A DNA stretch of 64,000 bases from Acidicapsa acidisoli (lineage in GTDB: Bacteria > Acidobacteriota > Terriglobia > Terriglobales > Acidobacteriaceae). The translations under genes were made by a program, and so were the position numbers. The notes below the pieces were generated by a model that made no database searches, had not been told where the DNA came from, and worked only from the letters and a program-made list of their open reading frames with translations. The DNA lies in NCBI RefSeq assembly GCF_025685625.1, contig NZ_JAGSYI010000002.1, forward strand, positions 1,550,001 to 1,614,000, given 5' to 3'. Every line of letters starts with the position of its first letter. Position 1 is the first letter of the stretch. This document shows, one piece after another, positions 839 to 20,877 of the stretch.

Positions 839-846
839 ATGAGATG

Positions 847-1035
847 CTATCTCTCTCCTAGGGATAAAAATGACGCGGGACGCAATGTGGCATGGGCGAG
901 CCAATCTTCGTCCGCATCGCCGCCGGTAAACGAGATATCTGCGTCTGCAAGTGAAGAGTCAGGATCGTTGCCAGCAAGACAACGCGCGATGGAACGTCGC
1001 AGCGCTCGAATAGATGAATGGGGAAAGAGGCTCAT
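847..1035 (-). CDS. small hypothetical protein, translationally coupled
   Basis: A 62-residue ORF not recognised as any family. Its ATG overlaps the TGA of the upstream nucleotidyltransferase gene as ATGA (1032-1035), and it ends 8 bases before the chosen start of the glycosyltransferase. It therefore fills exactly the gap between two co-transcribed genes, which is the main evidence that it is real. The N-terminal half is basic (RALRRSIARCL) and could be an amphipathic helix; the second half is acidic (GGDADEDW). No signal peptide or full membrane span is visible. It could also be only a coupling device that delivers ribosomes to the next gene. Confidence 0.42.
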   Translation of the reverse strand: MSLFPHSSIRALRRSIARCLAGNDPDSSLADADISFTGGDADEDWLAHATLRPASFLSLGER

Positions 1036-3142: not shown

Positions 3143-3813
3143 GTAGATCTCCTCGATTTGAGCTTTAGATGGCACCGCTCCATGTCCTCTCCCTCATGCC
3201 CCGCGGTCTTTTCTCATGCCAGGTCTGGTGCGCCCTCGCAAGCAGAAAGCGAGGGCCGGGAGTTGTCTTGACTCTAATCAGGTCGCGCCAGCCGGTTGTC
3301 ATGTCTCTGTAAGCCAATTGTCACCGCATTGTTGCGTCCCATACTTGCGTAGAGGCTGACACATAGAAGCCGCGAAGCGTGGTGGACGCGTCAATTGCGG
3401 GGATCGACGAAGCCGGTTTGAGCCATTTCAAACGAAATGACAATCAACAGACGGTCCAGCGACACATGGCACCCTAAGATCCGCCAGATTTAATGGGATG
3501 TTTCGATCGAATCACGACGCAAAATCTCGCGCGATTGAACGCGACAACCAACAGCCTGTACTAGAAGGTTTTGTCCGCCTGGGAAAAGCTCATTGCCATC
3601 GGTCTTCTGCAAGTTCGCGGCTTGATCGGTAATTTTCTGCGATTATGCGCGGCAATCAGGATATCTAGACTTGACAGTACTACCAACAGTGCGGTTTCTT
3701 TGTCGCAAGCTGAGTGCTGTCGCGCCGGTCACAATCAGTGCCATGGAGATCAACGGCTTTACACACATGCGGATTCGTGCGCGTGCCTCTCTGTTGACCC
3801 AGCGCACTTGTGC
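3143..3813. other. 671-base intergenic region with operator box and hairpin
   Basis: No credible gene; the short plus-strand frames here have no SD and odd composition. The region holds a perfect 8-bp inverted repeat (GCCCTCGC at 3232-3239 and GCGAGGGC at 3249-3256, 9-base loop, no T tract) and the direct-repeat box at 3297-3334. Both would lie in the promoter or leader of the cupredoxin gene. The part from about 3340 to 3813 shows nothing I can interpret. Confidence 0.6.
3297..3334 (-). promoter_or_regulatory. OmpR/PhoB-type direct-repeat box upstream of cupredoxin
   Basis: Read on the minus strand, the pentamers CAACA, TGACA, TTACA and TGACA occur at exactly 11-bp steps (3334, 3323, 3312 and 3301 down to 3297). 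Tandem half-sites one helical turn apart are the operator geometry of OmpR/PhoB winged-helix regulators. The order TGACA-TTACA-TGACA is the same as at 4604-4630 and nearly the same as at 19224-19261. Confidence 0.6.
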
Positions 3814-4551
3814 CTATGGGACAAATTTGTACCCTGCGCCATACACAGTCTGAAAGTACCGCGGATCGGCCGAATCCAGCTCGAGTTTCTGCCGTAGCTT
3901 TACAATCTGGTTATCCACGGTTCGCGGAGTTGGATAGGAGTTACATCGCCAGACCTCTGTCAGCACCTCCACGCGGCTTATAACTTTTCCCGCGTTTTCG
4001 ATAAAGTACTTCAATAGTTTGAACTCCAGAGCTGTAAGTGCGATTTGCTTGCCTGCGCGCCGCGCGCTCATCCTCGCGAAATCGATCTCGCATTCGCCAA
4101 AGCTGTAGGAGCATTTTGCTGTCTCTTGACTCCGCGTCCTTCCCAAGATAGTCTGCACTCTCGCCAGCAGTTCGCGGGGACTGAACGGCTTGGTCACATA
4201 ATCGTCCGCACCCGATTGCAGCAAAAGGACTTTGGCGGCTACATCGCTTATTGCGCTGACTACAAAAACCGGCACGCCTGGCTGTTCTGCTTTCATGATC
4301 TTGCAGAGGTCGCGACCAATTATGTTTGGCAGGCCCAGGTCCAACATGACCGCTGCCGGCCTCGCAGAGTGGAACGCGTCTAGCCCTGACAGGCCATCAC
4401 CGCAGACGATGACGCCGTAGCCCTGTTCACGGAAAAGTCTTCGCAGTACCTTTTGCATCTGCGGGTCGTCTTCAATAACCAGAATCTGCTCATCGCGGGT
4501 CCGCGTGTCGAGCACACCAGAATCTGTCGATGCCTTTTCGGTTGGGGACAT
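3814..4551 (-). CDS. OmpR/PhoB-family response regulator (orphan)
   Basis: 245-aa two-component response regulator. The receiver domain covers about residues 22-140 with acidic pocket D28/D29, phospho-acceptor D71 in VMLDLGLP, switch Ser S99 and Lys K121 in TKPF. A winged-helix DNA-binding domain covers about residues 145-245, ending in the usual YGAGYKF. No histidine kinase lies next to it in the window, so it is an orphan whose kinase is elsewhere. It is transcribed alone. A TGACA-TTACA-TGACA box lies 53-79 bases upstream of the start, suggesting autoregulation. It is the natural candidate to bind the five similar boxes in the window, by inference only. The receiver resembles that of the truncated regulator at 20878-21315. 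Confidence 0.95.
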   Translation of the reverse strand: MSPTEKASTDSGVLDTRTRDEQILVIEDDPQMQKVLRRLFREQGYGVIVCGDGLSGLDAFHSARPAAVMLDLGLPNIIGRDLCKIMKAEQPGVPVFVVSAISDVAAKVLLLQSGADDYVTKPFSPRELLARVQTILGRTRSQETAKCSYSFGECEIDFARMSARRAGKQIALTALEFKLLKYFIENAGKVISRVEVLTEVWRCNSYPTPRTVDNQIVKLRQKLELDSADPRYFQTVYGAGYKFVP

Positions 4552-4603
4552 ATCTCTATTGTTGCTCCACCGCTATCTTTCCAAGATGGAAGGTAATGGA
4601 AAA

Positions 4604-4630
4604 TGACAATGTTCTTACAATGGCTTGACA
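4604..4630 (+). promoter_or_regulatory. OmpR/PhoB-type direct-repeat box at response-regulator promoter
   Basis: TGACA at 4604, TTACA at 4615 and TGACA at 4626, exactly 11 bp apart, in the 173-base gap between the response regulator start (4551) and the end of the GDPD gene (4725). The pentamers read in the plus direction, opposite to the downstream regulator gene, whereas at the other four sites they read toward the gene. Autoregulation is therefore plausible but the orientation is unusual. Confidence 0.55.
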
Positions 4631-4738
4631 GATTACAGAGCCTGGTTTGGTCTTTAGATAAATCAACCAAATCCAACTTAGGAGATGCCATACGACCTCG
4701 CGTCTGAGTTTGGTCATTGAGAGATTACAGAACCGGGT
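4625..4738 (+). repeat. 22-bp direct repeat, two copies 92 bp apart
   Basis: Copies at 4625-4646 and 4717-4738 agree at 19 of 22 positions and share the core AGATTACAGA. The first copy includes the last pentamer of the operator box; the second covers the stop codon of the GDPD gene. Function unknown; it may be a second binding region or a small duplication. Confidence 0.45.
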
Positions 4739-6491
4739 GAAGACTTTGAATCTTGTCAATCGCCCAGTCGATCAGTCTCGCATCCGCAGAATCCGTCTTT
4801 CGCACATCCCGGAGAGTTGCAAGAGACTCGGTGTCGCCCTGCCATGCAACAATCCTTATCGCTCGATTCCTGAGATCTTTATTCTCATTGCGGAGAGCTT
4901 TCCGTACATCCGGCAGCACGTTCGGACCGCCCTGCACCAGCATCCATTCCGCCCGGTTCTGGACCTGAACGTCGTTCGATCCCAAGGCCTGCACCGCGGG
5001 AAGCGCGTTCAGGCCAATCCGATCCCACAACTGGAATGCCGCCACGATGCTGTCAAACTCTGCAGAATCCTCACCTGGACGAAACGCTAGTTCCTCCAGA
5101 GCCTCCATTGCCCGTGCCCCTTTCAGCATTGACATCGCCTGCACCATCTTCATCTGGCACCGGAAGTACCCCATGATCTCGTCAGTTTCCGCTTGCGTCA
5201 GTTTAGGCTTTCCGCGTCGGACGTAGTCGTCGCCAAGCCTGACGGCTGCGATCATCTCCAGCCTAAGCTGCTTCGGAATGGCTTTGAGGGCCACATCCGG
5301 CTGATGCCGCGCCAACGCCAGAGCTGCCTCACCACGAACCGTCACATCTCCATCAGACAGAATGGGCAACAACGCCTCCGCCTCAACGTCACCCTGTACC
5401 CGGCTGATCGCGAGGAGTGCCTGCCGGAGCACCTGTGGGTCCTTGTCCTTCAACAGAGGCAGCAGATTGTTTGCAGGCGCTCCCAATATCCCCAACGCCC
5501 ACGCGGCATTTGCCCGCGCATCCGCGTGCTCCGACCGCAGTGCTTCGGTAAACACAGAGATGGGTGCATGGGGGCGAGCCGTTACCAACGCGAGCGCGGC
5601 CGCCCGCGAGACGTGATCATCAGGATCCAGCAGCCAGCGAGCAAACTCGTCCTGCAATGGAAATCCCCTATATCGCGAGAGCTCCAAGATCGCTTCCGAG
5701 CGCGTACTGCTCTCGCCAGCGTTGGCCTTCATCGCCAACGCAGACAGCCTGGATTCAACTGGTCTTCCAACAGCATCCGCACCCAGGCGCGGATAGTCCA
5801 CATTGATTCCGTCTACTCCGGCGCTCACAGCGGACTTCATCGAAGCCAGATCCATCTCGTGTTCGTTGGCGGAAAAGTTCGCCACGACCGCTTTGCCCTG
5901 GTCGTGATATGTCTTCACCTGCTCGCCGGTCACACCCGGCTGAACCCACACCGTTCCGTCGCTCGCGTTGGTCGCACTCGGATGCAACTTCTTCACATCC
6001 TCCCATTCACCGTTGAACTGAACGCGCTCCAGCATGCCTTCGCGTTGCAGCAACTCGAGCACGTCGCCCCCGATGCCCTTGGTCTTGATATCCAGGATCA
6101 AGCGGATGTCCCGCTGCCGCGCCAGCCGCAGGGCATCTTCAAACAGGGCGATCCGCATTCCGCTGAATCGCTCGCCCATCCACCCACCCGCATCGAGTAG
6201 TCGCAGATCGTCGTAATAGGTCTTTTCCGGATCGCCCTCGCCATCCGTAAGCCGCTCCAGGACTCCGTCATGGTTCAGCACGATCTTTCCGTCCAACGTC
6301 CGCCGAAGGTCGATCTCCACCACGTTGCAACCCAATAGTGCTGCCTGTTCCAGCGACTCAAGCGTGTTCTCGGGTACATCCTCGTTGGCCGTACGGTGGC
6401 ACAGCAATTCCGGGTGCATGGGCTGCAATGCTCCTGCCTGGACTGCAGTCGCTGTAATAACCGTGAAAAGTACAGTACTAACTCGTCTCAT
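4725..6491 (-). CDS. glycerophosphodiester phosphodiesterase with C-terminal HEAT repeats
   Basis: 588-aa exported protein. After a signal peptide (cleavage near Ala-Gly at 19-20) comes a GDPD TIM barrel with the family's catalytic set: H32-R, P40-E41-N42-T43, E59-x-D61 and H74-D75. Known family members hydrolyse glycerophosphodiesters to an alcohol and glycerol 3-phosphate. From about residue 265 to the end the sequence is a run of Ala/Leu-rich helical repeats of HEAT/PBS type (ARANAAWALG, GEAALALARH and similar), an unusual tail for this enzyme that suggests binding to a partner. It is the last gene of the minus-strand operon beginning with the TonB receptor at 12506. In many bacteria GDPD enzymes belong to the phosphate-starvation regulon. 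Confidence 0.9.
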   Translation of the reverse strand: MRRVSTVLFTVITATAVQAGALQPMHPELLCHRTANEDVPENTLESLEQAALLGCNVVEIDLRRTLDGKIVLNHDGVLERLTDGEGDPEKTYYDDLRLLDAGGWMGERFSGMRIALFEDALRLARQRDIRLILDIKTKGIGGDVLELLQREGMLERVQFNGEWEDVKKLHPSATNASDGTVWVQPGVTGEQVKTYHDQGKAVVANFSANEHEMDLASMKSAVSAGVDGINVDYPRLGADAVGRPVESRLSALAMKANAGESSTRSEAILELSRYRGFPLQDEFARWLLDPDDHVSRAAALALVTARPHAPISVFTEALRSEHADARANAAWALGILGAPANNLLPLLKDKDPQVLRQALLAISRVQGDVEAEALLPILSDGDVTVRGEAALALARHQPDVALKAIPKQLRLEMIAAVRLGDDYVRRGKPKLTQAETDEIMGYFRCQMKMVQAMSMLKGARAMEALEELAFRPGEDSAEFDSIVAAFQLWDRIGLNALPAVQALGSNDVQVQNRAEWMLVQGGPNVLPDVRKALRNENKDLRNRAIRIVAWQGDTESLATLRDVRKTDSADARLIDWAIDKIQSLHPVL

Positions 6492-6533
6492 TACCGATAC
6501 CCCATATCTATCAAGCGAATTAAGAATCGCAGC

Positions 6534-7835
6534 CTACAGCTTGACCGGCACGCTTCGATCCATCGGGCCAATGAGCGACCAAAACAGAAGCGCCGCCACA
6601 ACGGCCAGGACCGCGATCCCGGTCAGCACAGGTGGATATCCGAAGCGCATGAACAGAGCTCCCGCTCCTGCAGTTGAGGCCGCCCCTACCAGCGCATTGC
6701 AGAACAGCGCCATCGATGAAGCGTTGCTTTGTTTCTCTTCTGGCACCTTGCTCATCAACAGGTTGTATAACCCCGGAGAACTCATCCATTGCATTCCGAA
6801 AAAAATGAGGTAAAGGACTACCGCAATCTCAGCGTTCTGTGTTCCGGCGAGCAAGCCCAGGGCCACTGCCGTCAATAGCTGAGTTACGACAACACCATTG
6901 ACAGTCCCAAGCGTGCGAAAAACTATTGGCGACAGGAGTGTGACGCAAAACTGCATCACCTGCGCCGCAGAAAAAACTAATCCGATCCGCAATAGAGGAA
7001 CATGCAAGTCGCGCGAAAGATAGACATTGGCAAACGGTGTGAAGGAAGTGACCACGACCGTCCACAGCGCCATTGCGGGCAGAAATCGTAACAGGAACCG
7101 GTCCACTCTCAAGAGTCTGCGCCAGGTGCGGTTTTCCGCCACGTTCGTGACCGGCGTAGTTACCTGAAGCGAAGGCAGCCGCATTACCGCAAACAGGCCA
7201 AGCGCGGCAATCCCGGATGAAACGAGGAGAATCAGCCGCTTTACTTCAATCGGCTGCATCCCGAATCCGGCCCTGCTCAACCACTGCGGCAGATAGCCGC
7301 ACACGACTCCGCCCAGAATACCGGTGCCGACACCTGCGGAGAATATCAGACTGAAAGCTGACGGGCGGTTCGCCTCCGTCGTAGTCCGAGCCACTGCCGG
7401 TAGCATGCATACGCCCCACGAGCACATCGCCAAACCTGACAAAAAACCCAAGATGATCTGCCAAGCTTCGCCCGTAGCCGTCGCACGCAAGGCGCACAGT
7501 AATGGTGCAATCACAAAGCAGCCGATCAGAACCGGGCGAATCCCAACCCTGCGGGCTAATGAGCCCGCAGGCAGTGTCCCTGCAACCGAGCCCAGCATCG
7601 CCGCTCCATTCACCAGCCCGATCGATCGATCATTGAAATGGAGGTCGAGCAGATATAGGTTGAACATAAAAACGTAGATCAACATTCCAAAATCAAAGAA
7701 AAACGCAGCCGCAAAGACCACCCAGAAGCCTTGGCCCAACTTCTTTTGTCGAAGCCAGGCGACAGGATTTCCCCAGAATCGATTGACGTTCTTATCGCGC
7801 GATGGCGCAGGATTGGACTCCAGCAATCGCTCCAC
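6534..7835 (-). CDS. major facilitator superfamily transporter
   Basis: 433-aa polytopic membrane protein with about twelve hydrophobic helices in two halves and a cytoplasmic loop near residues 195-225, typical of MFS permeases. The loop after helix 2 contains the family's basic motif (ARRVGIRP, residues 82-89). The start is GTG at 7835, whose first base is the last base of the stop codon of the HPr-kinase-like gene, so the two are translationally coupled. Its position after a TonB receptor and before an exported GDPD suggests that it moves the product of outer-membrane uptake and periplasmic hydrolysis across the inner membrane. The substrate is not readable from sequence. Confidence 0.9.
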   Translation of the reverse strand: MERLLESNPAPSRDKNVNRFWGNPVAWLRQKKLGQGFWVVFAAAFFFDFGMLIYVFMFNLYLLDLHFNDRSIGLVNGAAMLGSVAGTLPAGSLARRVGIRPVLIGCFVIAPLLCALRATATGEAWQIILGFLSGLAMCSWGVCMLPAVARTTTEANRPSAFSLIFSAGVGTGILGGVVCGYLPQWLSRAGFGMQPIEVKRLILLVSSGIAALGLFAVMRLPSLQVTTPVTNVAENRTWRRLLRVDRFLLRFLPAMALWTVVVTSFTPFANVYLSRDLHVPLLRIGLVFSAAQVMQFCVTLLSPIVFRTLGTVNGVVVTQLLTAVALGLLAGTQNAEIAVVLYLIFFGMQWMSSPGLYNLLMSKVPEEKQSNASSMALFCNALVGAASTAGAGALFMRFGYPPVLTGIAVLAVVAALLFWSLIGPMDRSVPVKL

Positions 7836-8851
7836 TAACGCCCCTCTCGTACCAGGGTCCGAAGCCGGTCGATGGCCCAGTCCAGATCGGTATAGAGAAG
7901 CTCCAGCACGTCGATCGTCAACAGCCGCTCGATTGTCGAATACGAAACGGCGAGTGAATGCGGCGTCCCATACAGTGTTTGTCTCAAGGCGTGGCGGGCC
8001 ACATCCTTGCGGTAAGGTCGAAGCTCAGGCGGGCCGCCTGCACGCCGATTGAGAAAGACGAGAAAATCCACCCGCGCCGACTGCGCACAAACCATCTTTG
8101 GAAAGAACGCCGTCGGCAGCTCGATCGACGGCTTGCCGACTAGTCGCGGCGTAATATCCTGTCCCTGCAACTCAGGAAACAATTCAGCCGCCGTGGGCCT
8201 GAAGCGCACCTGATGACAGGCGCCAATCACAGTTCGGTCCGTTCCGGAGTTCAACAGAAAGCTTGCATCGTCGCATACGTATGTCCAACCTGCCCGGGCG
8301 CAGGCATACGACAACGTTGATTTACCCGCACCCGAGTCGCCGCATAACATCACCCCGCGCCCGTCCAGTGCCACGCACGCCCCATGCACGGGAGTTATGT
8401 GGCGTACTGAGAGATGGGGCCCTGGCGCCGCCGCCAGAAACAAAGACCCCACGAAAAGCTTGTGCCGCATAGCCCCGCTTGTGACCGCTATATGGGTACA
8501 GTTATGCTCCAAGTCGGCGATCATGAAGTTGTCCTCATTCGCGAACGTCAGGATCAGCGGCCAGTTGAAACGGTACTTCGGGGGCGGCGGGCACTCAGTT
8601 GTCCCGCCTTCTGTCACGTGCACGTAAATGCGCACGGGCTCCGTGGAATGCTCCTTCTCGAACATTCCCCATTGTTCGGAGGCAATCTCAAACACCTCGG
8701 GTGAATTCGTGATCACTTCCACGGGGAAACCATGGAGATAGAAGACTTCCTTCAGTTGAAGCTTGGGCTCTTCTCCTGGATGCTCGATAGAATCCAACTG
8801 CTGCGAAGACAAGGCGTTACACGCGGACTCGATTTCTTCAATGGTCATCAT
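7835..8851 (-). CDS. HPr kinase/phosphorylase-like P-loop protein
   Basis: 338-aa soluble protein. The Walker A loop GDSGAGKST at residues 171-179, followed by CDDASFL around 193-199, is the signature of the HPr kinase C-terminal domain and its relatives (HprK-like serine kinases). The N-terminal 150 residues do not match the classical HprK N-domain to my eye, and no HPr gene is nearby, so the true substrate is unknown. The frame is open to 8911, but the start is placed at 8851 (MMTIEE) because GGAGAAGG precedes it. It lies between the TonB receptor and the MFS transporter and overlaps the latter by one base. A regulatory or substrate-kinase role in the uptake operon is inference. Confidence 0.78.
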   Translation of the reverse strand: MMTIEEIESACNALSSQQLDSIEHPGEEPKLQLKEVFYLHGFPVEVITNSPEVFEIASEQWGMFEKEHSTEPVRIYVHVTEGGTTECPPPPKYRFNWPLILTFANEDNFMIADLEHNCTHIAVTSGAMRHKLFVGSLFLAAAPGPHLSVRHITPVHGACVALDGRGVMLCGDSGAGKSTLSYACARAGWTYVCDDASFLLNSGTDRTVIGACHQVRFRPTAAELFPELQGQDITPRLVGKPSIELPTAFFPKMVCAQSARVDFLVFLNRRAGGPPELRPYRKDVARHALRQTLYGTPHSLAVSYSTIERLLTIDVLELLYTDLDWAIDRLRTLVREGR

Positions 8852-8915
8852 CGGTTGCCTTCTCCGGAAATTGAAATGTGCTGCGCGGTGCGGGGCTGAA
8901 CCCGAACACACCGGA

Positions 8916-11900
8916 TCAGTAAATGTATTTCAGTGCGAACTGAATAATGCGCGGGTGTGGCCCGCCTTGTTCACCCGTGATCTCGCCGAAGGAAGAACTC
9001 GCGGTTGGATTCAGCAGTGTGGGATCGCTGTAGCCCAGACTGGTGTTCGGATTGCCGAACTGCGGCGTATTCGTGAGGTTGAAGAACTCCGCCCTGAACC
9101 GGAAGCTCTTGTTCTCCGTCACTGGAATGATTCGTTCGACCGCCATGTCAAGGTTGTGTTGCCCAGGACCTCTCACAAGTCCAACACTGCTGTTGCCGAA
9201 GTTTTGATCTGCCAGGCTTGTCCCGTCTGGAGCTTCAGGTGCACGTGTGAAGGCGTTCGAGTCCAGGTAACGTCCACTTCCAACCACACGCGAGAACAGC
9301 GACCCATGCGTCGAAGGATTGCTCCCTGTGGCCTGAGCCCGGTTGTTAAAGTTTCCATAAACCGAGCCGGCGTTTCCGTCAAAGATACTGAGTGCAGCGC
9401 CCGATTGAATCAGACCGATGCCAGAGAATTCCCAATGCGAAAGGAGATAGCGCGGCAGCGACGGGGTCGATGCGAACCTCGGCACGACCCAGGTGAAGTT
9501 GACCACTGCTCGCTGGTCGCGATCGTCGCCTGCCAAACCATACGACGATTGCCGCAGATGGTGCTGATCGTTGGTCGGAAGCTGGGTCTCGAAGGTATCG
9601 TTCCCTCCTTCACCATTTAGCTCGTCCAGGTTCTTCGACCACACATAGGTTCCTTGGAGTTGGAATCCATGCGCCATCCGTTTCGTGATGCTGGTTTGCA
9701 GTGAATTGTAGTTGCCGATGAAGACCGATTCTGCGAAGAGCGATCCCTGAGGCACACCCTGGAAGGGCTGTCGCGCAGCGACATTGTTCACCGAGTTCGT
9801 CGTCTCCCCATTGATTGGATTTTGCGGACTCGCAAGCAGCGACTGGTTGAACTCGATCTGTCCCGGCCGATGCACCGACCACGTCCCCACATATCCCACC
9901 TCCAACAGGTAGTCGTGTCCAGGCGCATACTGCACGTTCAGGTTGTACTCTTCGGTTTTCCCATCCTTGATGTTCGGATCGGCTCCCTGTGTGAACGGAA
10001 GAGGTGAGGCGGAGCTTCGCGCCACGAAGATCGGATAACTGGAAGTAGGCAGCACAAGAGGATCGTAAGGACTCTGCAAGGTAGCGGCACCATTGGCAGC
10101 TCCCTGTACGATATTTCCTGTCGAATACGGCGGCTGAGATAATCCGGACTCCACAATGCCGGTCGAGTGCTGATCGAAGTAAATTCCATAACCTCCTCTC
10201 AATACCAGAACCGGCTTTTCCGTCATCTGCCACACAAATCCCAGTCGCGGCGAAACATCTCCATGCGGGGTCTTCCACAGTCCCGCAAAAGAATTCTGCA
10301 CTACGCCAGTCGGTATCTTGCTCTGAAAATTCGAGGGCACGGTAAACCCGCTGAATGTTCCCGTGGCAGGAACCGGTCCCTGCACAGCGATGTTCGCGTC
10401 GAAGTTCGCCAACCGGCCACCGGTTTCCGTCGGTGCTCCAAAAACCTCATATCGAAGACCGGCATTTATAGTAAGCCGCCGCGTCAGCTTGATATCGTCC
10501 TGTGCAAAGCCCGCGAAGTCCGTGAATCGGACGTTCCGACGGAAAATACCCCCTCCCGACTGTGTTGTCCCAACATTGCTGAATCCAAATGGGCTGCCGT
10601 TCTGCGCCGCGCTCTGTCCCAGGAGAAAATCATCGAAACTCGGGATTTGCAGCAATCCGTCCGTCTCGTTGGGTGAATTTACGTCTACTTCGTGACGCCT
10701 GAACTCCGCTCCGAATCGCATGTTGTGACGACCCGTGGTGCGAGCGATCGTATCCTGATAGATGAACGAGTTTGTCACCTGCCACTCCGACGGGGTGCCC
10801 GCGTCGCCGATCGTAAGACCTGCGACCATCAGTCCGGGACCGTTCAACGCAGGCCCCATCGCGCCCGTCGGAGTGCCTATTCCGATCGACTGGGCGGTGA
10901 GAGGACTCTGTACCCTCGACAGTCCATCAAACCTGGTGTAGCCAAACCGCGCGATGTTCAGCAGATTCGAGTTGAAGACGTGGGTATCCGCCAGCACGAA
11001 CATGGTGTTACGGCTCAGATCATTTGTGGGCCAGCCTGGAACATTCGCTGCTCCGTTGGGCGAGAACGCCAGAGTCTCTGGAGCACGCGCATAAAAGAAC
11101 CGTCCCGCCAGAGTGTTCTTATCGGTAAGTATTTGGTCGATGTCGACCGTGAATTGATCCTCCCGGTAATGTGCCGGAATCGCATATGTCGAGGCCCCTA
11201 AAGGCAATTGATCCGAAGCGTCCGAGCCGCTGTTCGGCACTGCAACCTGCGGACTTGGCACTGCAAGATTTCCGTTTGGGAGCTTCGCATTCAGAATTGC
11301 CAAAGCTACGGGGTTGATGTTCGACCCGTCGCAGGCAACCTGCGTCCCGCCGGCCACCGTCAGGTAGCCCGATGCCGGCTGCCCCTTACTGTCCAGATGT
11401 CCCGCGGGGCAGAACTGCGCTCCAAGTCCCGCTGCGGACCGGTCAGAGGTGAGCAATGGATAAACATCGTTCTGTTCATCGCCCAACCCATTCACTTCGG
11501 TCGATCCCTGGTATGCCCCAAAAAAGAACGTCCGATCCCGAATGATCGGGCCGCCAGTCGATGCGCCAAACTGGTTCTGCTTCAGATCTGCCCGCGGCTG
11601 GCCATCCAGCTTCGAGAAAAAGTCATTAGCGTTGAAGATATTGTTACGCACAAACTCCCATGCGCTGCCGTGAAACTCGTTCGTTCCGCTCTTGCTGACG
11701 AGATCAACGTTCGCTCCCGACCCACGTCCATATGCCGCGTCGAAATTGGCCGTTTGCACACGGAATTCCTGGATCGTATCGGGAGCCGGAATGGCAGTGC
11801 CAACGATCGAGCTTTCTGCGTTCGAAGCCGAGTTTTCGTATAGGTTATTGGCGTCGATGCCGTTGAACTGAAGATTGTTGTTGGTCGCTGTCGCTCCGTT

Positions 11901-12506
11901 GGAAGCAACATTCAGCGTCCCGTTTCCCAGTGCGGTCGCGACCGGGAGATCGACCACGACACCCGGCGCAAGTCCGAGGATTTGCGTGTAGTTGCGACTT
12001 GATAGCGGCAACGCCTCGATCGCAACTCTGTCTACCAGACCTCCAATCGTAGAGCTTTCCAGGTCGGCCACCTCGGCGTCTCCGCTTGCCACTTGCACAC
12101 TCGCGCTGGCCGTTGGAAGAGCCAGAGTCAAATTCAATGAGGCAGTCTCGCTCACGGTCACTTCGATCAACCGCGATGTCTTTTCGGCGAACCCAGGCGC
12201 CTTGACCGTGGCCGTATACGTTCCCGGCGGCAGAAGGGGCAGACGAAACAGACCCTCCGACGTCGTCCTTACGGTTCGGGAAAGATGGGTCGCATCATTC
12301 ACCGCAAGCACCTCCGCATCGGCAATCACTCGACCAGAAGGGTCATACACCACACCGGAGATGGCGCCAGTCCCTGGAGTTTGTCCAAAGGACGTGCCCG
12401 TCAAAACGAGCAGAAGCATCATTGATCCAGCAAGTAATCTCCGCATCCAACCCGCGGTCATAGAATTGTCACTCAATTGACTCTCTTTCATGGCTTCTTG
12501 TTCCAT
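8916..12506 (-). CDS. Oar-like TonB-dependent receptor (first of three)
   Basis: 1196-aa outer-membrane protein. A short N-tail is followed by a signal peptide (MRRLLAGSMMLLLVLTG), then a carboxypeptidase-regulatory-like beta domain at about residues 45-130 (GAISGVVYDPSGRVI). A plug domain follows at about 150-270, then a large beta barrel ending in an aromatic residue (KYIY), as required for outer-membrane assembly. Size and architecture match the acidobacterial/myxobacterial Oar-type receptors, which import large or complex nutrients using TonB energy. It heads the operon with the HprK-like, MFS and GDPD genes. The start could also be the Met at 12491. A direct-repeat operator box lies 35 bases upstream. 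Confidence 0.92.
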   Translation of the reverse strand: MEQEAMKESQLSDNSMTAGWMRRLLAGSMMLLLVLTGTSFGQTPGTGAISGVVYDPSGRVIADAEVLAVNDATHLSRTVRTTSEGLFRLPLLPPGTYTATVKAPGFAEKTSRLIEVTVSETASLNLTLALPTASASVQVASGDAEVADLESSTIGGLVDRVAIEALPLSSRNYTQILGLAPGVVVDLPVATALGNGTLNVASNGATATNNNLQFNGIDANNLYENSASNAESSIVGTAIPAPDTIQEFRVQTANFDAAYGRGSGANVDLVSKSGTNEFHGSAWEFVRNNIFNANDFFSKLDGQPRADLKQNQFGASTGGPIIRDRTFFFGAYQGSTEVNGLGDEQNDVYPLLTSDRSAAGLGAQFCPAGHLDSKGQPASGYLTVAGGTQVACDGSNINPVALAILNAKLPNGNLAVPSPQVAVPNSGSDASDQLPLGASTYAIPAHYREDQFTVDIDQILTDKNTLAGRFFYARAPETLAFSPNGAANVPGWPTNDLSRNTMFVLADTHVFNSNLLNIARFGYTRFDGLSRVQSPLTAQSIGIGTPTGAMGPALNGPGLMVAGLTIGDAGTPSEWQVTNSFIYQDTIARTTGRHNMRFGAEFRRHEVDVNSPNETDGLLQIPSFDDFLLGQSAAQNGSPFGFSNVGTTQSGGGIFRRNVRFTDFAGFAQDDIKLTRRLTINAGLRYEVFGAPTETGGRLANFDANIAVQGPVPATGTFSGFTVPSNFQSKIPTGVVQNSFAGLWKTPHGDVSPRLGFVWQMTEKPVLVLRGGYGIYFDQHSTGIVESGLSQPPYSTGNIVQGAANGAATLQSPYDPLVLPTSSYPIFVARSSASPLPFTQGADPNIKDGKTEEYNLNVQYAPGHDYLLEVGYVGTWSVHRPGQIEFNQSLLASPQNPINGETTNSVNNVAARQPFQGVPQGSLFAESVFIGNYNSLQTSITKRMAHGFQLQGTYVWSKNLDELNGEGGNDTFETQLPTNDQHHLRQSSYGLAGDDRDQRAVVNFTWVVPRFASTPSLPRYLLSHWEFSGIGLIQSGAALSIFDGNAGSVYGNFNNRAQATGSNPSTHGSLFSRVVGSGRYLDSNAFTRAPEAPDGTSLADQNFGNSSVGLVRGPGQHNLDMAVERIIPVTENKSFRFRAEFFNLTNTPQFGNPNTSLGYSDPTLLNPTASSSFGEITGEQGGPHPRIIQFALKYIY

Positions 12507-13094
12507 TGAGGCTGAGTATGAGGAGTTCGTCGCCGCGACTTGTTATCGAATTGTCACTTTTTTGCATCAATCTTTGCTGACGGCCAGAACGTGACGACAC
12601 GAATCGCAATTCGTCAGGTTCCTCTCAAGGGCGGTTCCGTGACAGAATGACGATCTCTACGGAAGTTGTTGATACCTGAGATTCCCCTCGGAACGTTGAA
12701 GTCGGAGGCGCCTCTAAGGAGAAGATCCGTTCTGCGGATCGGCAAACAATCTGGGCGCGGCAAACACTCCTGCACCGAGACCGAATGCCCTCTGAATGAA
12801 GATGCGACGATCGCTGATGACATTCCTTGTTTTGAAAATGGATCAGCGGACAGCGGAGCAACGCCTGAAAACACGCACCAAGCCATGCACTGATTCGAGG
12901 AGGGATGGACGGAACCGGATACTGAGGGAGGAGCTTGGACGCTGAAAGAGCAGTCTATTGTCGCTAGTTCGACCGAGCGGCATCCGCATCCGCTTGTTCG
13001 AGGGCTTAGGCGACCCACGGGACTTCACTGAGATTTTTGTCCTGGACGCCGCTGACTTCCTACACTCCGGCCGGGTGTTCCTGTATCTCCTGCT
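12507..13094. other. 588-base intergenic region upstream of TonB receptor operon
   Basis: Separates the end of the metal-pump operon (13095) from the start of the TonB receptor (12506). It contains the direct-repeat box at 12541-12567 and a short perfect palindrome, ACGAAT at 12599-12604 and ATTCGT at 12609-12614. The minus-strand frame 12614-13018 has Ser/Cys/Arg-rich composition and no recognisable domain, and I do not consider it a gene. Nothing else could be recognised. Confidence 0.55.
12541..12567 (-). promoter_or_regulatory. OmpR/PhoB-type direct-repeat box upstream of TonB/HprK/MFS/GDPD operon
   Basis: On the minus strand TGACA (12556-12552) and TAACA (12545-12541) are 11 bp apart, with a weaker ATGCA one further step upstream (12567-12563). 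The first ten bases from TGACA, TGACAATTCG, resemble the cupredoxin box, TGACAATTGG. The box lies 35-61 bases from the receptor start, about where a promoter activator would bind. Confidence 0.5.
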
Positions 13095-16000: not shown

Positions 16001-16160
16001 GAGCGTCAGTCACAACTGTCACCTGATTGTTCGTGAGGTCGGGGAACGCCTCGACAGGCATGGTATAGAGCGCGTATCCGCCCGCCGCAACCAGAGCGAC
16101 AATCAGCATCAGCACGATCCAGCGAGCGGAGAGTGCAGCATCAATGATGCGATTTAACAT
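13095..16160 (-). CDS. czcA: CzcA-type heavy-metal RND efflux pump
   Basis: 1021-aa inner-membrane proton antiporter of the heavy-metal RND family, the central part of a CzcCBA tripartite exporter. Seen: N-terminal helix, large periplasmic loops with the conserved GVSEINNWGG segment, and the transmembrane helix 4 signature IDFGMIVDGAVVMMEN near residues 388-403. In the known subgroup patterns DFGx3DGA marks CzcA-like pumps for divalent cations (Zn, Co, Cd), whereas CusA/SilA copper-silver pumps have AIGx3DAA. This agrees with the RcnR-like sensor at 18665-18943. It lies two bases after the adaptor pseudogene and is the last gene of the operon. The gene itself is full length and intact. Confidence 0.93.
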   Translation of the reverse strand: MLNRIIDAALSARWIVLMLIVALVAAGGYALYTMPVEAFPDLTNNQVTVVTDAPSMPPTEVEQLVTYPIEQAMMGMPKQQEVHSLSKLGLSIITVVFDDSVSMYFARQMVNERLQQVTDQLPKGIQPQLGLPATAFGELYQYTLSGPLTPMELKDLQEWQIKRQLRTVPGVSEINNWGGEVKQYQITVDPALLTQYGLTLHDVAQRVNENNTNFGGGYIEHNDEQYTLRGEGRAQNVEDIGNIVLLSSRGVPVLLSDVAKVGIGPAPRLGAVLRNGETISGMVIMLKGENGKRVIAAVKEKIKNIHLPAGVKIVPFYDQSSVIDGTIQTVKKNLFEGFILVTVVLFLFLGNVRAALITASIIPLAMLVSFINMRLFGFSANLMSLGAIDFGMIVDGAVVMMENSIRRLEERRKGESGLAAVREAAHDVARPMAFGVIIIIAVYVPIFFLEGLEGRMFRPMAFTVCSALFGALLLALIAIPVFTTFAFGKGLPARSTRISTGWLERLADRYQCLLATVIRHRKATVAVAVLILVAALWSLTVIGTEFMPRLDEGSILIETRKLPGISLTDSVEISKHIEQKLRAFPEIADVVIKIGRPDFATEAMGINEGDTYLLLRPMSEWHRFHSKEELIDAIDKELAKVSGLAYDFTQPMAMRVDETVSGVKADLAIKVFGDDLDTLDSLSVQILRAVSSVRGAADAQIQLTSGVPELTIRVDRGALARYGLDVTDVEQAVEAGASGAVISQLIEGQKRYDIAMRLPESYRVNPQSMQEITLLAPGGAQVKLDQVAQVRVVRAAIEIDREEGQRRMVVMSNVRGRDLGSFVKEVQANVSRQVKLPAGYSIEYGGQFENQQRATRRLMIIIPIVILLIYILLYCTFKSFAQALLVVGNIPFALVGGITALWLRGMNLNLSASVGFIALFGVAMLNGVVLVSSINQAREAGRTTYDAVLAGARRRLRPVLMTACVASFGFIPMALSTSTGAEVQRPLATVVIGGIFTSTLLTLLLLPVLYEWSLRKSILSE

Positions 16161-16162
16161 GC

Positions 16163-17362
16163 CTAGTCTCCAATCGAGGATTTGAGGAGCTGCGATTTGG
16201 CGATGAAGCTGCCGTGAGTGACGACCCGCTCGCCTGGCTTCAATCCCTGGAGGATGCGGACGTTGCCGCGCACGTTTTCGCCTGTCTGTACGGCCCGCAC
16301 CTGGAATCGATCCGCCGCCAGGCGAACAAAGTCGACATCCTGGCCGTTGACCTGTTGAATCGCCTCCTGCGGCACAAGGATAGTGGGGATGCCGGCCCCT
16401 GTGTCGAACTCCGCGCTTGCCAGCATCTCAGGGCGAAGGCGATTGTCGGTGTGCCCGATCTCGATGCGTACCTCGGACTGGATCGAACTCCTGACCAAGG
16501 TTTGTAATCCTCCCCGGGTAGGCCGCATCCGGCGCGTCCGGCAGTGTGATGGTGGCGGTCTGCCCGACACGCAACTTGGACAACGTCGCCGCATCGACTG
16601 AGGCCAGCATCCACAATCGACTGAGATCACCGATCACAAAGGCGTCCGTGGAAGTAGAGATGGTTGAGCCGGGTGTAACGTTCTTTGCAATATCCGTCCA
16701 CTTGCGGGGGCTTTGATGGGGATCAAATCGGCGTCGTCCGAATCGCTGGCTGTCGTATCTGCTTTGATCCCGAGAATCTCTTCGATGTGAGCCTGTTCCC
16801 GATGTACATTGTTGTCGGACTCGCGGGTCGCACTCTGGGCGTTCACCAGCTCCTGTTTCGCGATCTAGACTTGTGAGACCGATTCAGCTTTGAGAGCGTA
16901 GAGCCGTTGACTGCGTTCGTAGTTCTTCTCGGCCAGTGCTTCGGCAGACTGCAGGCGCGTGCGTTCGGCCACGGCATTGGCGTAAGCTGCGCGGGTCTCA
17001 TGCACATCGTGGCTGTGCATACGGGCGAGCACCTGGCCCTTTTCGACGAAGTCGCCAAGATTGAAGTTGACCTTCTCCACTCGGCCTTCAGCGAGGACGC
17101 CCACGCGCCAGATCGCGTTGTCCGGCAGAGCGATATGCCCTTTGGCCCGCCGGCTCACGACGGTGGTGCCCAGTTCGACTGGCGCGGCTTCAATCTTCTG
17201 TTCAGTCTGTGCTTGCGCCGATAGCGTCACCTCATCCGACGCGCCTTTGTCCTCGACTGTTGCCGTTGTTTCACTCTTTGTATCCTGTTGTGGACTATGG
17301 CATCCACAGAGCAGGCAATACGACATCGCACATATCCATGCGACTCCTCTTTTGATCTTCAC
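16163..17362 (-). pseudogene. czcB: periplasmic adaptor (CzcB/HlyD family), broken by a stop and two frameshifts
   Basis: The whole adaptor is recognisable but not in one frame. It starts at 17362 with a lipoprotein-type signal peptide (CLLCGCHS) and a barrel-sandwich lipoyl part, and runs into an in-frame TAG at 16865-16867 between SQV and IAKQELVNAQSA. The same frame continues to IKAPASGRILQ; near 16681-16688 the reading shifts by one base to VTPGSTISTSTDAFVIGDL. Near 16468-16476 it shifts back to the first frame (VRIEIGHTDNRLRPEML) and goes on to the normal C-terminus at 16163. The second shift lies in a GGTAC-like repeat, suggesting a small deletion. The start overlaps the outer-membrane gene by ATGA. 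Three lesions in one gene with intact neighbours indicate real decay rather than sequencing error. Confidence 0.9.
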
Positions 17363-18579
17363 TGATCCGCTCCTTCGGCATAGTTCAGTGCGGCAATGCT
17401 GAGATGAAAGCCTTCCAGGGCGCGTATGTAGCTGAGCTCCGCGTCCACACGTGCTCGTTCCGCATCGATCAATCGAAGCAGGTCGAGTCCCCCAGCCCGG
17501 TATGCGGCCCGGCTGATATCCGAGATTTCGATGGCCTGCTCTCGCAGAGGCTTAAACGTCTGAAGATACTGATCACGGCGCATCTCGTACTCTCGTTGCG
17601 CTAATTCGAGCTCGGCCGCCAGCCTGTTGTGCGCCGCTCGATAATCTTCTCGTGCGGCCTCCTCCTCCGCATGAGCCGCCTCGACAGCTCCCTGATTTCG
17701 ATTGAAGAATGGAAGATCGAACTGAACTCCGGCCACCGGAGAATCGAAATTCGTGTCCCGCTTATAGCCGCCAGTGAAGAGCAGGTCAGGCCTGCCGTTT
17801 GCCTTTTGCAGCCGAGTCTTTGCTTCCGCCCCGGCAATCACTTGTTGGGCAAGTTGGCCTTCCACTCGAAGCGACGGAGCGTCTGTTCCGGATGGGAGTG
17901 ATTTCGGTTCCTCCAGCGTTTCGAAGTCCTCTGAGAGCGCCCAGGAACTGTTCGGGGCGGCATTCATCTCCTGCGCCAGTATCAATAGCGCCTTTTCCGA
18001 GTCGAGCCTTGCATTGGCCGCCGCAGCGCAAATCTGCTCTCCTTGCAGGCGGACCCGCAACAGATCCACCTCCGATATCTTGCCCTCACGGAAGCGCGCC
18101 TCGTGATACTCGATCACATGCCGAAAGTAGTCCGCATCCTGGGCATACAAAGCAGCGAGTGATTGCGCAGCCTTTGATTTCCAGTAACTTTCGCGTACCG
18201 TCAGTTCGATCTGCCGCCGTTCAAGTTCAGCCTGCAGGCGGCTCTGCTCTATACTCTGCTGCGCGACGGCGATGCGGCCTCCGCGCTTACCGGAGGTCTC
18301 GAAAAGCTGCTCTCCTTCCCAATCGGTCTGGGAGTTCTCTCCGATGTTGAGGTGATCGGTAAAATCCTCTTTACGAAATAGAAAGCGGGGATTAGGAAGC
18401 AGGCTTGCTTGTGAGCGCAGCCGCTCCGACGCCGCAGTGCGATCGTTTGTCGCTCGCAGTTCTGGACGGTGTGAGAGCGCGTAGCTGACCGCATCCTGCA
18501 CCGAGAGAACTGTCTGTCCATGACAGAAGCTAGCCCACGAGAGCATTCCTATAAATACACACGAGAGAGACCTTCTCAT
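17359..18579 (-). CDS. czcC: TolC/CzcC-family outer-membrane efflux protein
   Basis: 406-aa outer-membrane factor of the TolC superfamily, the exit duct of the metal-efflux complex. It has a signal peptide (cleavage after FCHG near residue 21), then two repeats of long amphipathic helices with the OEP pattern (VRESYWKSKAAQSLAALYAQ and LELAQREYEMRRDQYLQTFK), as expected for the alpha-helical tunnel. Length is typical for CzcC/CusC relatives, and there is no lipobox Cys. Its last four bases overlap the start of the adaptor pseudogene. It follows the RcnR-like regulator by 85 bases, so the operon order is sensor, outer-membrane factor, adaptor, pump. Confidence 0.9.
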   Translation of the reverse strand: MRRSLSCVFIGMLSWASFCHGQTVLSVQDAVSYALSHRPELRATNDRTAASERLRSQASLLPNPRFLFRKEDFTDHLNIGENSQTDWEGEQLFETSGKRGGRIAVAQQSIEQSRLQAELERRQIELTVRESYWKSKAAQSLAALYAQDADYFRHVIEYHEARFREGKISEVDLLRVRLQGEQICAAAANARLDSEKALLILAQEMNAAPNSSWALSEDFETLEEPKSLPSGTDAPSLRVEGQLAQQVIAGAEAKTRLQKANGRPDLLFTGGYKRDTNFDSPVAGVQFDLPFFNRNQGAVEAAHAEEEAAREDYRAAHNRLAAELELAQREYEMRRDQYLQTFKPLREQAIEISDISRAAYRAGGLDLLRLIDAERARVDAELSYIRALEGFHLSIAALNYAEGADQ

Positions 18580-18664
18580 CGGTAGGAGTCCTGTTCTAAA
18601 TTCGCGAAAGACCGCTGGACGTACTTGCGAATCGAGAAAGCGCCAACAGCAACTTCGCGAATAT

Positions 18665-18943
18665 CTAGTTGAAATATCTTTTGACTACGGACATCAGTTC
18701 GTCCGCAGCTTCAATCTGTGAGGGGAGGGGTTTCTGCTCGGGGGAAAGGACATGGAAGCGCAAATGCCCCTCGATCAGTTCGGCCATCAAGCCGTTCAGA
18801 GCCCCGCGGCAGGATGCCACAAGTTGCAAGATTTCCTCGCACTCTCCCTCTGCCTCAAGAGCCCGCTCAATGGCTTCGGCTTGTCCCTTAATCCGACGAA
18901 TGCGGGACAAGAGTTTTTTCTTATCTTTCGAAGTGTGTGACAA
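18665..18943 (-). CDS. RcnR/CsoR-family metal-sensing repressor
   Basis: 92-aa DUF156-family repressor. I take the start as TTG at 18943 because GAGAGG lies six bases upstream and the resulting N-terminus (MSHTSKDKKKLL) matches RcnR; the longer frame to 18994 would run through the operator. With this start the metal-binding fingerprint is H3, C35, H60 and H64, exactly the ligand positions of the Ni/Co sensor RcnR, while CsoR copper sensors have Cys at the last position. All-helical, tetramer-forming family that releases DNA on metal binding. It is first in the operon with the CzcCBA-type pump and is expected to repress it. The metal (Co, Ni or a similar divalent ion) is inferred. Confidence 0.9.
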   Translation of the reverse strand: MSHTSKDKKKLLSRIRRIKGQAEAIERALEAEGECEEILQLVASCRGALNGLMAELIEGHLRFHVLSPEQKPLPSQIEAADELMSVVKRYFN

Positions 18944-18964
18944 TGAGCACCTCTCATGCAAATA

Positions 18965-18985
18965 ATATACTCCCTTATAGTATAT
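18965..18985 (-). promoter_or_regulatory. probable RcnR-type operator
   Basis: Perfect inverted repeat ATATACT (18965-18971) and AGTATAT (18979-18985) around a 7-base GC-containing centre. On the minus strand it reads TACT-ATAAGGG-AGTA, matching the TACT-N7-AGTA form of known RcnR sites with a G run in the centre. It lies 22 bases before the regulator's TTG start, where binding would block transcription of the metal-efflux operon. Confidence 0.72.
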
Positions 18986-19223
18986 AAAAATCAAACCCTA
19001 AATGAAGTTTGGCGCTGACAGTGATGAAGATGAGCACAACAGAGTCTGTATCCTGAGTTCCAGCTACGCTATGTTCTGCCGTCCTCCCTTCATTCCATTG
19101 GCTCACCTGCGCGATGTTGGGACAGCTGGATTCAGGGCCAATCGAGAAGAGCTTCGCGTACTGCGTTAGTGTCTGGCGTAGAACTGGGCAGTAGCAACCG
19201 GAAGATCGTGATCTTGCCTTCTC

Positions 19224-19261
19224 CGACAAACAGATGACAAAAGTTTTACTTTCAGCTGACA
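19224..19261 (+). promoter_or_regulatory. OmpR/PhoB-type direct-repeat box upstream of ferritin-like gene
   Basis: Four pentamers exactly 11 bp apart in the direction of transcription: CGACA at 19224, TGACA at 19235, TTACT at 19246 and TGACA at 19257. The box ends 48 bases before the start at 19310. Order and spacing agree with the cupredoxin box almost step for step. Confidence 0.6.
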
Positions 19262-19309
19262 CCCGCTTCGATTGATAAGGTTAGGGTGTTTGGCCAAGGA
19301 GGCTCCTGT

Positions 19310-20434
19310 ATGGATATGTGGAGCAATATGAGAACCGCAGTCAATCGGCGTTCGTTCATGAAGAACGGACTGTCCGCAGCCGGCATCGGACTCCTGGCCA
19401 ATAGCTCATCTGTTTTTGCAGACGATGATGATCATGAAGAACACGATCGCCGCCTCACTCGCGGAGATGCAGCTCTGCTTCGGTTCGCGGCAGCAGCGGA
19501 AATTCTGGAGACGGACTTCTGGGTGCAATATAACGAACTGGCTGGTATTCAAGACAGCGAAGAGCCAAGTGGGAGCGGGAATGCAGCCTTCACCGCTGCT
19601 CTCTCGGTGCTGGACTCCGACATGGCCCAGTACGTACACGACAATACCGACGACGAATTCACCCACCAGAACTTTCTCAACGCGTATTTGGCTTCCAAGG
19701 GAGCAGAAACAATCGATCTTGAACGGTTTCGCACTCTACCGGGTAGCACAGCGACGGGGTCCAGCGGAAAACTACGAATTACAAACCTGATGCAGCTCAC
19801 CCTCGATACCAGCTGGTGGACTCGCTACCGCAGCAGTACGAATAATCCTGACCTCGATCCCAACTTCACATTCCCGCAGGCGATCCCAACCCTTGCGAAA
19901 GGACAGCATACGGCAATACCTCGGACCGATGCCGACACCGCAGATCCAAACTTCCTCCAGGCCATCGCAAATACTGCGGGTTTTCACTTCCCAACAATCG
20001 AACAAGGCGGCAACAGCCTCTATCCCGCAATGGCGCAGAGAGCCACTAGCGTTGAGGTCTTGCGAATTCTGATCAGCATTGGCCCCACCGAAACCATGCA
20101 TTTTCAGACCTGGTCGGACAAGGCGGGCAACGCGCCTCCCCTCACCGCAAAGGATCCAGTCACAGGGGTATCGGTGACTTTTCCAAATCTGAATGCTCCT
20201 CCGTTTGGTGGCGAGACTTTCCAGACAAACCTGATCATGCCGGAGCCATGCCCATTCCTGAGCCGCAAGCTCCCGCCATGCTCGATCATCCGTCCCACAG
20301 AAACAAGGGGGATTGCCGGGAACGTAGTCAGCTTCCTTACGGCAATGGGGCTCTTCGTCGGTCAACCGCCAGCGTTTTTCAGGTTATTGCACGATCTGGC
20401 GGCGGACGCGGACGCGGCCAGACGGGAACGATAA
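19310..20434 (+). CDS. exported ferritin-like domain protein (Tat signal)
   Basis: About 374-aa protein. The start at 19310 is chosen because AAGGAGG lies seven bases upstream; the open frame begins at 19286. The N-terminus carries a twin-arginine type signal (NRRSFMKNGLSAAGIGLL) followed by an Asp/His/Glu cluster (DDDDHEEHDRR) that could bind metal. The mature part has ferritin-like helices with Glu/His pairs (LETDFWVQYNELAG, DDEFTHQNFLNAYL, ETMHFQTW), the pattern of the ferritin_2 group of acidobacterial secreted proteins. No enzymatic role is known for this group; iron or oxidative-stress functions are only suggested by the fold. It is transcribed alone, behind a direct-repeat operator box, with a strong hairpin downstream at 20531-20573. 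Confidence 0.82.
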   Translation: MDMWSNMRTAVNRRSFMKNGLSAAGIGLLANSSSVFADDDDHEEHDRRLTRGDAALLRFAAAAEILETDFWVQYNELAGIQDSEEPSGSGNAAFTAALSVLDSDMAQYVHDNTDDEFTHQNFLNAYLASKGAETIDLERFRTLPGSTATGSSGKLRITNLMQLTLDTSWWTRYRSSTNNPDLDPNFTFPQAIPTLAKGQHTAIPRTDADTADPNFLQAIANTAGFHFPTIEQGGNSLYPAMAQRATSVEVLRILISIGPTETMHFQTWSDKAGNAPPLTAKDPVTGVSVTFPNLNAPPFGGETFQTNLIMPEPCPFLSRKLPPCSIIRPTETRGIAGNVVSFLTAMGLFVGQPPAFFRLLHDLAADADAARRER

Positions 20435-20530
20435 GCCTGCGTTGCCCATCAAACTTCAGTGACGAAAGCGCCAGCAAGTAACTCCGACGTGGGATGCGTC
20501 CGTATCGCATAGAACCACGTCTTTCAGATG

Positions 20531-20573
20531 GCACGCCCTCAGGCCACATCGGTATTTTGTGGCCGGGGCGTGC
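20531..20573 (+). terminator. strong two-part hairpin after ferritin-like gene
   Basis: Outer stem GCACGCCC (20531-20538) with GGGCGTGC (20566-20573), inner stem GGCCAC (20542-20547) with GTGGCC (20559-20564), and an 11-base A/T-rich loop. All 14 pairs are perfect, with only a 3/1-base internal loop. No T tract follows, so it may be a terminator of non-classical type or a structured RNA end. Confidence 0.55.
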
Positions 20574-20770
20574 TCAACACACTGTGCGAGCACGCAAAGC
20601 CAGCTCCTATAATGAATCGCAGGTATTTGATTTATAAAATCCTATTCGGTGTTGCACAGGGCGACAATCAGCGACCGGCTCGAGCGTTGTCTATTTCGGC
20701 CTGCAGTTGGCGTGTAAAACCTCCTGACAAAGAACATCGTTATTGCTGCGGTCACAGCCAATTAGAGATA

Positions 20771-20797
20771 TGACAAACCCATGACCTCCTTGTGACA
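20771..20797 (+). promoter_or_regulatory. OmpR/PhoB-type direct-repeat box upstream of receiver-only regulator
   Basis: TGACA at 20771, TGACC at 20782 and TGACA at 20793, exactly 11 bp apart and reading toward the gene that starts at 20878. Confidence 0.58.
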
Positions 20798-20877
20798 TCT
20801 TCTCGCGGCCAGAGCAGTACGGTGGGCTTGGGGTGGGTCCATAGCGGCTAACCTACTGCTGAAGACATGAGCTGGCG

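Follow-up and report, generated by a model that had tools for sequence, protein, structure and literature searches.

Conserved 11-bp-phased boxes as likely operators of an OmpR/PhoB-family two-component regulator associated with exopolysaccharide genes in Acidobacteriaceae

Response regulators of the OmpR/PhoB family provide the closest described counterparts of the sequence element examined here. In Escherichia coli, the pho box of PhoB is described as a series of 11-nt direct repeats with a CTGTCAT core, which corresponds to TGACAG on the other strand (PMC4415409), and PhoB sites are reported to overlap the -35 element (PMC3348028). For ArcA of the same species, three to five direct repeats with an 11-bp centre spacing are given for 92 of 158 sites, in layouts that vary and with 74 operons repressed and 11 activated (PMC3798270), and the direct repeats of CenR in Rhodobacter sphaeroides are presented as co-directional and upstream of the -35 in 28 of 31 cases, many of them at envelope genes (PMC9275681). 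The present study concerns a set of comparable boxes, built of TKACA-type half-sites at 11-bp steps, in a 64-kb window (the whole stretch of DNA analysed, C2:1550001-1614000 of the 7.1-Mb genome of Acidicapsa acidisoli, G000). Sequence comparisons make it likely that these boxes are operators of the OmpR/PhoB-family two-component regulator encoded at 3814-4551, and of its orthologues and paralogue, acting according to the scheme set out below. We regard it as a new regulon of known type.

The original prediction placed 11-bp-phased boxes at five sites of the window, all intergenic and each upstream of a gene, and both claims were confirmed by direct reading and by a motif scan. The boxes are as follows (EPS, exopolysaccharide):
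Box 1, 3297..3323, minus strand: TGACA-N6-TTACA-N6-TGACA, pointing towards the cupredoxin/EPS operon.
Box 2, 4604..4630, plus strand: TGACA-N6-TTACA-N6-TGACA, at the regulator gene and inverted relative to it.
Box 3, 12541..12567, minus strand: ATGCA-N6-TGACA-N6-TAACA, upstream of the TonB-like/HprK-like/MFS/GDPD operon.
Box 4, 19235..19261, plus strand: TGACA-N6-TTACT-N6-TGACA, upstream of the Ferritin_2 gene.
Box 5, 20771..20797, plus strand: TGACA-N6-TGACC-N6-TGACA, upstream of the receiver-only gene.

At four of the five sites there are three TKACA half-sites spaced by exactly 11 bp, with no more than one mismatch, and two of these sites are perfect; box 3 is weaker than the others, combining two good half-sites (TGACA, TAACA) with a weak third, and is conserved. 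The three-half-site pattern (at most one mismatch) was found four times in the window and never in 60 Markov shuffles, and a scan of the window at any other period from 6 to 21 gave no match. All five boxes lie between accepted genes, short overlapping open reading frames (ORFs) on the window's lists being treated as spurious. Four point towards their gene; the opposite orientation at the regulator gene had been missed previously. Box 1 is extended to 3334 by a weak fourth half-site, CAACA, and box 4 by CGACA one step upstream (19224-19228). Hexamers resembling a -10 element follow box 1 (TAGAGT, 3271-3276), box 4 (TAGGGT, 19282-19287), box 5 (TACGGT, 20818-20823) and box 3 (CATACT, 12515-12520, i.e. 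+20 as counted by hand); none was found at +20/21 of box 2. Given the position of CATACT, the true start codon of the TonB-like gene is probably downstream of 12506.

The regulon had been thought to be local, a view that is contradicted by the occurrence of boxes elsewhere in the genome and in other Acidobacteriaceae. TGACA-N6-TTACA-N6-TGACA with up to two mismatches has 18 matches in the whole genome and one in a backwards control, the pattern with TGACA in the middle 29 against 3, and a third variant 22 against 2. Among the 18 matches, seven lie at C2:1534-1571 kb, the window's own sites included, C4:431-441 kb holds two, C2:873 kb has a single one, and a ferritin paralogue at C1:1381 kb is preceded by another, which places 11 of them in two EPS islands, in a regulator-kinase locus or before that paralogue. 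Intergenic and coding DNA were compared in 35 stretches, with boxes of at most one mismatch (overlapping ones merged) and genes defined as simple ORF calls that matched a reference set or reached at least 200 aa, their first 60 nt being ignored. Here 35 of the 37 boxes were intergenic, although 549 of the 674 kb are coding, and the reversed control gave none. The two remaining boxes lie in a 236-aa ORF antisense to a cupredoxin gene (L019) and at the extreme end of an ORF (L102). Conservation in related genomes, which the prediction also left to be checked, was observed: 55 named loci (1.03 Mb) contain 74 boxes against none in the controls, with at least one box in 38 of them. Gene-specific boxes recur in relatives; the cupredoxin and NTP5 genes of relatives are preceded by boxes similar to box 1, and the TonB-like genes at L032, L099 and L100 share the layout of box 3, with CATACT at +20 in L099 and L100 and GATACT at +21 in L032 (offsets counted by hand). 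In KBS 83 (G054), Acidicapsa dinghuensis (G001) and other loci, a similar cluster carries boxes before separate operons.

The distance between box and hexamer was analysed in 98 distinct boxes from 71 sources, identified by their half-sites alone and after dropping boxes with identical 60 nt. A TANNNT hexamer starts 20 nt after the box in 67 cases and 21 nt in 13 (80 of 98), while at any other offset from 0 to 49 it occurs in at most two boxes each. With overlapping registers counted apart, its share falls with the number of mismatches in the box, from 30/38 (none) and 55/77 (one) to 49/153 (two) and 42/255 (three), and is 1/118 in the reversed control. This feature is independent of how the boxes were found, and such a spacing supports a functional role for them. 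If the hexamer is taken as the -10 element (-12 to -7), the proximal half-site falls at about -37 to -33, overlapping the upstream part of the -35; the column profile of the boxes shows a weaker fourth half-site upstream. The layout differs from each of the known systems: the half-sites face the -10 as TGACA, 20-21 nt away from it, unlike those of PhoB, the distance to the -10 is nearly fixed, unlike the variable arrangement of ArcA, and CenR sites consist of two half-sites, TGA-N8-TGA. The E. coli pho box reads CTGTCAT towards the -10, with about 11 nt between. Related islands within the genome raise the question of whether the boxes recur only as passengers of copied DNA. After removal of boxes with similar downstream flanks, however, the hexamer was kept at +20 in 57 and at +21 in 12 of 87 boxes (69 in all), and boxes precede unrelated genes, with differing spacers, in many genera, which leaves a repeat or duplication artefact with next to no plausibility.

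According to the scheme that we propose, the phosphorylated regulator would occupy a tandem array of three, often four, half-sites on one face of the helix. At target genes, the overlap of the proximal half-site with the -35 would permit direct recruitment of RNA polymerase, and hence presumably activation; at the regulator gene, the inverted box without a -10 at fixed distance would serve autoregulation, to which no sign is assigned. Targets would include genes of EPS and glycan assembly (Poly_export, Wzz, Wzx, Wzy, glycosyltransferases, NTP_transf_5), a cupredoxin/cytochrome c pair, the porin-like protein, an ABC exporter, B12/radical-SAM genes, the TonB-like/HprK-like/MFS(/GDPD) operon and some Ferritin_2 genes. 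It is from the sequence of the boxes and their conservation, orientation, geometry and linkage, all directly observed, that we infer binding, phosphorylation, activation, the partner kinase and the signal.

The suggestion that the targets of the window form one shared response holds insofar as they appear to belong to one regulon, but its dominant theme is EPS/glycan assembly and not cupredoxin, GDPD and ferritin alone. Two islands contain, by Pfam, Poly_export/SLBB, Wzy_C, GT87, NTP_transf_5, ABC exporter and radical SAM/B12 families; the Wzz, Wzx and some of the glycosyltransferase labels are our own assumptions from sequence, made without a family search. The locus L032 (C2:865-878 kb) starts with a box and TonB-like, HprK-like and MFS genes, followed by a porin-like gene that diverges from a box with cupredoxin, regulator and histidine kinase genes and those of a 545-aa and a 245-aa protein. 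Among 17 named loci with a porin-like gene of less than 45% identity, a box is present in 8/10 with a cupredoxin/cytochrome c nearby and in 0/7 without; seven stretches with more distant porin-like genes (L108-L111, L113-L115) contain no box. The model of the porin-like protein (mean predicted local distance difference test score, pLDDT, 81.7) has porins as its best matches among those listed from the PDB, and that of the 545-aa protein (60.9) was too weak for a structure search. At L019 (3555-4663) the island's porin-like gene is in pieces, one of them with a stop; intact copies exist on C4 and at C2:872 kb. Regarding ferritin, 14 homologues were found in 61 genomes, and for eight of these homologues the 260 bp upstream include a forward box (control: one); the paralogue at L034 scores 20.2 bits, below the PF13668 cut-off of 24.7. 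PCC13-62 of plants and DRB0118 of Deinococcus belong to the Ferritin_2 family; desiccation survival is reported to drop when DRB0118 is inactivated, and metabolite phosphatase activity is attributed to tardigrade and Deinococcus members (PMC11616004). The combination of EPS and Ferritin_2 targets hints at a possible drying or envelope response. Several radical-SAM-like genes stand in runs at L103, L104 and L106, with an HprK-like gene near a box, and could represent a modified-glycan or natural-product cluster.

The claim that the boxes look regulatory, with the protein encoded at 3814-4551 as the best candidate binder, gained support from its orthologues, which co-occur with boxes and carry one upstream. 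The survey covered 100 genomes, that of A. acidisoli included, of which 30 have a box (at most one mismatch), 18 the porin-like protein and 41 the regulator at E<=1e-50. Boxes were found in 24 of the 31 genomes with a regulator orthologue (E<=1e-66) and in 6 of the 69 without (P=1e-11), and the association persisted within the same family (21/26 vs 4/34) and among genomes of at least 4 Mb (20/25 vs 3/29). A different possibility is that the boxes serve several related OmpR-type regulators, with the window regulator as a mere member of the group or of secondary importance. Genomes contain between 17 and 124 first-look response regulator candidates, boxes are present in six regulator-negative genomes, and TKACA repeats precede two other response regulator genes, at L035 (5488-5514) and L036 (6471-6497), both of OmpR type and one of them diverging from an RND pump. 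However, boxes track the orthologue of the window regulator across genomes, regulator, kinase and boxes are co-located in loci, and the L035 and L036 repeats, which lack a -10-like hexamer at +20, are probably sites of other regulators. We consequently regard binding by several regulators as unlikely, albeit the least unlikely of the alternatives, and retain the window regulator and its orthologues as the candidate binder.

Several observations nevertheless weigh against this conclusion. Seven of the 18 matches in the genome lie outside regulon places, 18 of the 98 boxes lack a -10-like hexamer at 20/21, and only 49 of the 153 boxes with two mismatches have one. The threshold of E<=1e-66 was set post hoc, and E<=1e-50 gives 24/41 vs 6/59 (P=3e-7). 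Some apparent absences of the regulator may be misses, given that no more than 27 first-look candidates were scored in each genome; a box with one mismatch or less is lacking in seven of the 31 regulator-positive genomes, and three of the six regulator-negative genomes with a box are 54-76% complete. TKACA repeats are furthermore generic to the regulator family, as the L035 and L036 cases illustrate, and six of the 14 ferritin homologues (one a fragment, and three of the six being paralogues in the genome of A. acidisoli) have no box within 260 bp upstream.

By its receiver and winged-helix domains, the regulator is a member of the OmpR/PhoB family. Its phospho-acceptor D71 and K121 are invariant in an alignment of 10 sequences, its closest relative is found in KBS 83 (69-74% identity by method), and the regulator at L032 is a paralogue with 56% identity. 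The best sequence matches are MtrA and RegX3 in the PDB and RpaB in NCBIfam, the scores for RpaB, MtrA and PhoB being below the respective NCBIfam cut-offs. We know of no link between MtrA, RegX3 or RpaB regulators and EPS loci of this kind. The orthologous regulator of Terriglobus roseus DSM 18391 (L192, 15278-16020) apparently falls into two ORFs in the genome as deposited.

The 450 bp upstream of regulator genes were examined for a box, defined as three half-sites containing no more than two mismatches or as two exact ones. In a first set of 30 loci, out of 54 matches listed, the box was reversed only in 21, forward only in one, in both directions in one and absent in seven, with boxes in 3/30 of the reversed-sequence controls; a -10-like hexamer at +20/21 was present in one of the 22 reversed boxes. 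A second set comprised 22 of the 24 named regulator loci together with L032 and L098, leaving out L182 and L190 (on the same contigs as two of the first set) and counting the split L192 gene once; here 22 of 24 were reversed and two had none, with none in the control. Both sets combined give 43 reverse only, one forward only, one both and nine none, the latter representing eight distinct genes since L098 and L120 of the first set are one gene. As the nearest upstream ORF is co-directional in 14 of the 22 reversed cases of the first set (opposed in seven, not found in one), divergent targets do not explain most inverted boxes. Part of the orthologues have a conserved AT-rich element (TAAGCT or AAAATAG) some 39-47 nt downstream of the inverted box, which would thus sit upstream of the promoter, the element not being a clear -10. 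Upstream of the regulator genes at L131, L135, L137 and L141 a common GGTAGTAAGCTTG is found, with TAAGCT about 39 nt past the inverted box pair. Repression of the regulator gene by covering of its -10 was considered and not adopted.

In the 55 named loci, boxes pointing away from a nearby target numbered 34 (22 at porin-like genes, five at TonB-like genes and single cases elsewhere); in 28 of them a gene lies on the other side, to which the box points, and the remaining six have a -10 in box direction at an allowed register, three regulator cases having neither. These orientations bear on whether the boxes are mainly repressor sites. Regulators of the OmpR family can repress, as described for ArcA (PMC3798270), and CenR sites of repressed units are reported as 2/3 inverted (PMC9275681), as is the regulator's own box here. 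Half-sites at targets, on the other hand, precede the -10 by a constant distance and are oriented downstream, like the 28/31 CenR sites of units predicted to be activated (PMC9275681), and repression would need no fixed spacing. A predominantly repressive function appears improbable to us, and activation of the targets stays the preferred reading; CenR is a partial precedent for the difference in orientation.

The regulator was also described as a full one without a kinase. None adjoins it in the window, yet this looks like a local loss, because its paralogue in the same genome (L032) has an adjoining histidine kinase, as do 21 regulators among the 24 named loci; in three, the regulator lies at the end of a stretch. 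In KBS 83, genes for the kinase and the 545-aa and 245-aa proteins follow immediately downstream of the closest relative; they are missing beside the window regulator, where 3176-3813 shows no more than a faint kinase signal (E=0.008). Part of the window island has decayed, and its boxes persist. Since no kinase lies beside the window regulator, the paralogous kinase at C2:874-876 kb (L032:14420-16306) is its likely partner, which would act in trans.

A Pho-like signal had been put forward for the window; the boxes would then be pho boxes recognised by the PhoB of this genome, and the genes would respond to phosphate starvation. The 11-nt direct repeats with a CTGTCAT core do resemble the boxes on the other strand (PMC4415409), and one target operon includes a GDPD gene. 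No box, however, either as three half-sites with at most two mismatches or as two exact ones, is found at L033 (20 kb), which contains the phoB/phoR-like and pstSCA genes, or at L043 (13 kb), a second pstS-like locus; the targets are EPS genes. Furthermore, where the PhoB equivalog cut-off is 296.2 bits, the window regulator reaches 163.7 (239.8 for the pst-linked regulator, also below), and GDPD is labelled in only 4 of the 55 named loci (stretches of at most 10 kb on each side). The Pho explanation was therefore set aside as very improbable. Judged from gene content, the purpose of the regulon is likely an envelope or desiccation response that builds extracellular matrix.

Extended to the family, our results render it fairly probable that Acidobacteriaceae have a dedicated, as yet unnamed two-component system for a matrix and desiccation programme, with operators of three to four half-sites at a fixed distance from the -10 and an orientation (forward at targets, inverted at the regulator gene) kept across genera. 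The programme would consist of EPS assembly, cupredoxin/cytochrome c, the porin-like protein, the TonB-like system and a PCC13-62-type ferritin. Acidobacteria are abundant in soil. Among the papers listed from the open-licence literature, none describes by title or abstract an acidobacterial EPS regulator or operator, most subscription papers being outside it. The fixed layout of box and -10 makes the regulon predictable from sequence, and it allows a connection of a two-component system with EPS and a desiccation-type protein to be tested in strains like Terriglobus roseus or Edaphobacter. The contrast in operator orientation between targets and regulator gene provides a natural series as well.

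The genes of the window associated with the boxes are the following:
11..904, minus strand: WecG/TagA-type glycosyltransferase, with relatives in EPS loci; we take this name from the sequence, without a family search.
1032..2303, minus strand: NTP_transf_5 protein, following the cytochrome c remnant in the same direction.
2314..2603, minus strand: cytochrome c gene remnant in two reading frames, beside the cupredoxin.
2777..3175, minus strand: cupredoxin, first gene after box 1 (family search).
3814..4551, minus strand: OmpR/PhoB-type response regulator, candidate box binder (Pfam Response_reg and Trans_reg_C, both over cut-off).
4725..6491, minus strand: GDPD with HEAT repeats (family search).
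6534..7835, minus strand: MFS transporter (family search).
7835..8911, minus strand: HprK-like protein, below family cut-offs.
8916..12506, minus strand: TonB-receptor-like outer-membrane protein, first gene after box 3 (family search).
19310..20434, plus strand: Ferritin_2 (PF13668) protein, 30.8 bits against a cut-off of 24.7.
20878..21315, plus strand: receiver-only relative of the regulator (family search and alignment).

The two frames of the cytochrome c at 2314-2603 represent either a frame-shifted copy or a sequencing error. In the receiver-only protein, the first acidic-pocket residue is Tyr and the phospho-acceptor Asp and the Lys are kept; it is possibly a degraded or phosphorylation-independent relative of the regulator.

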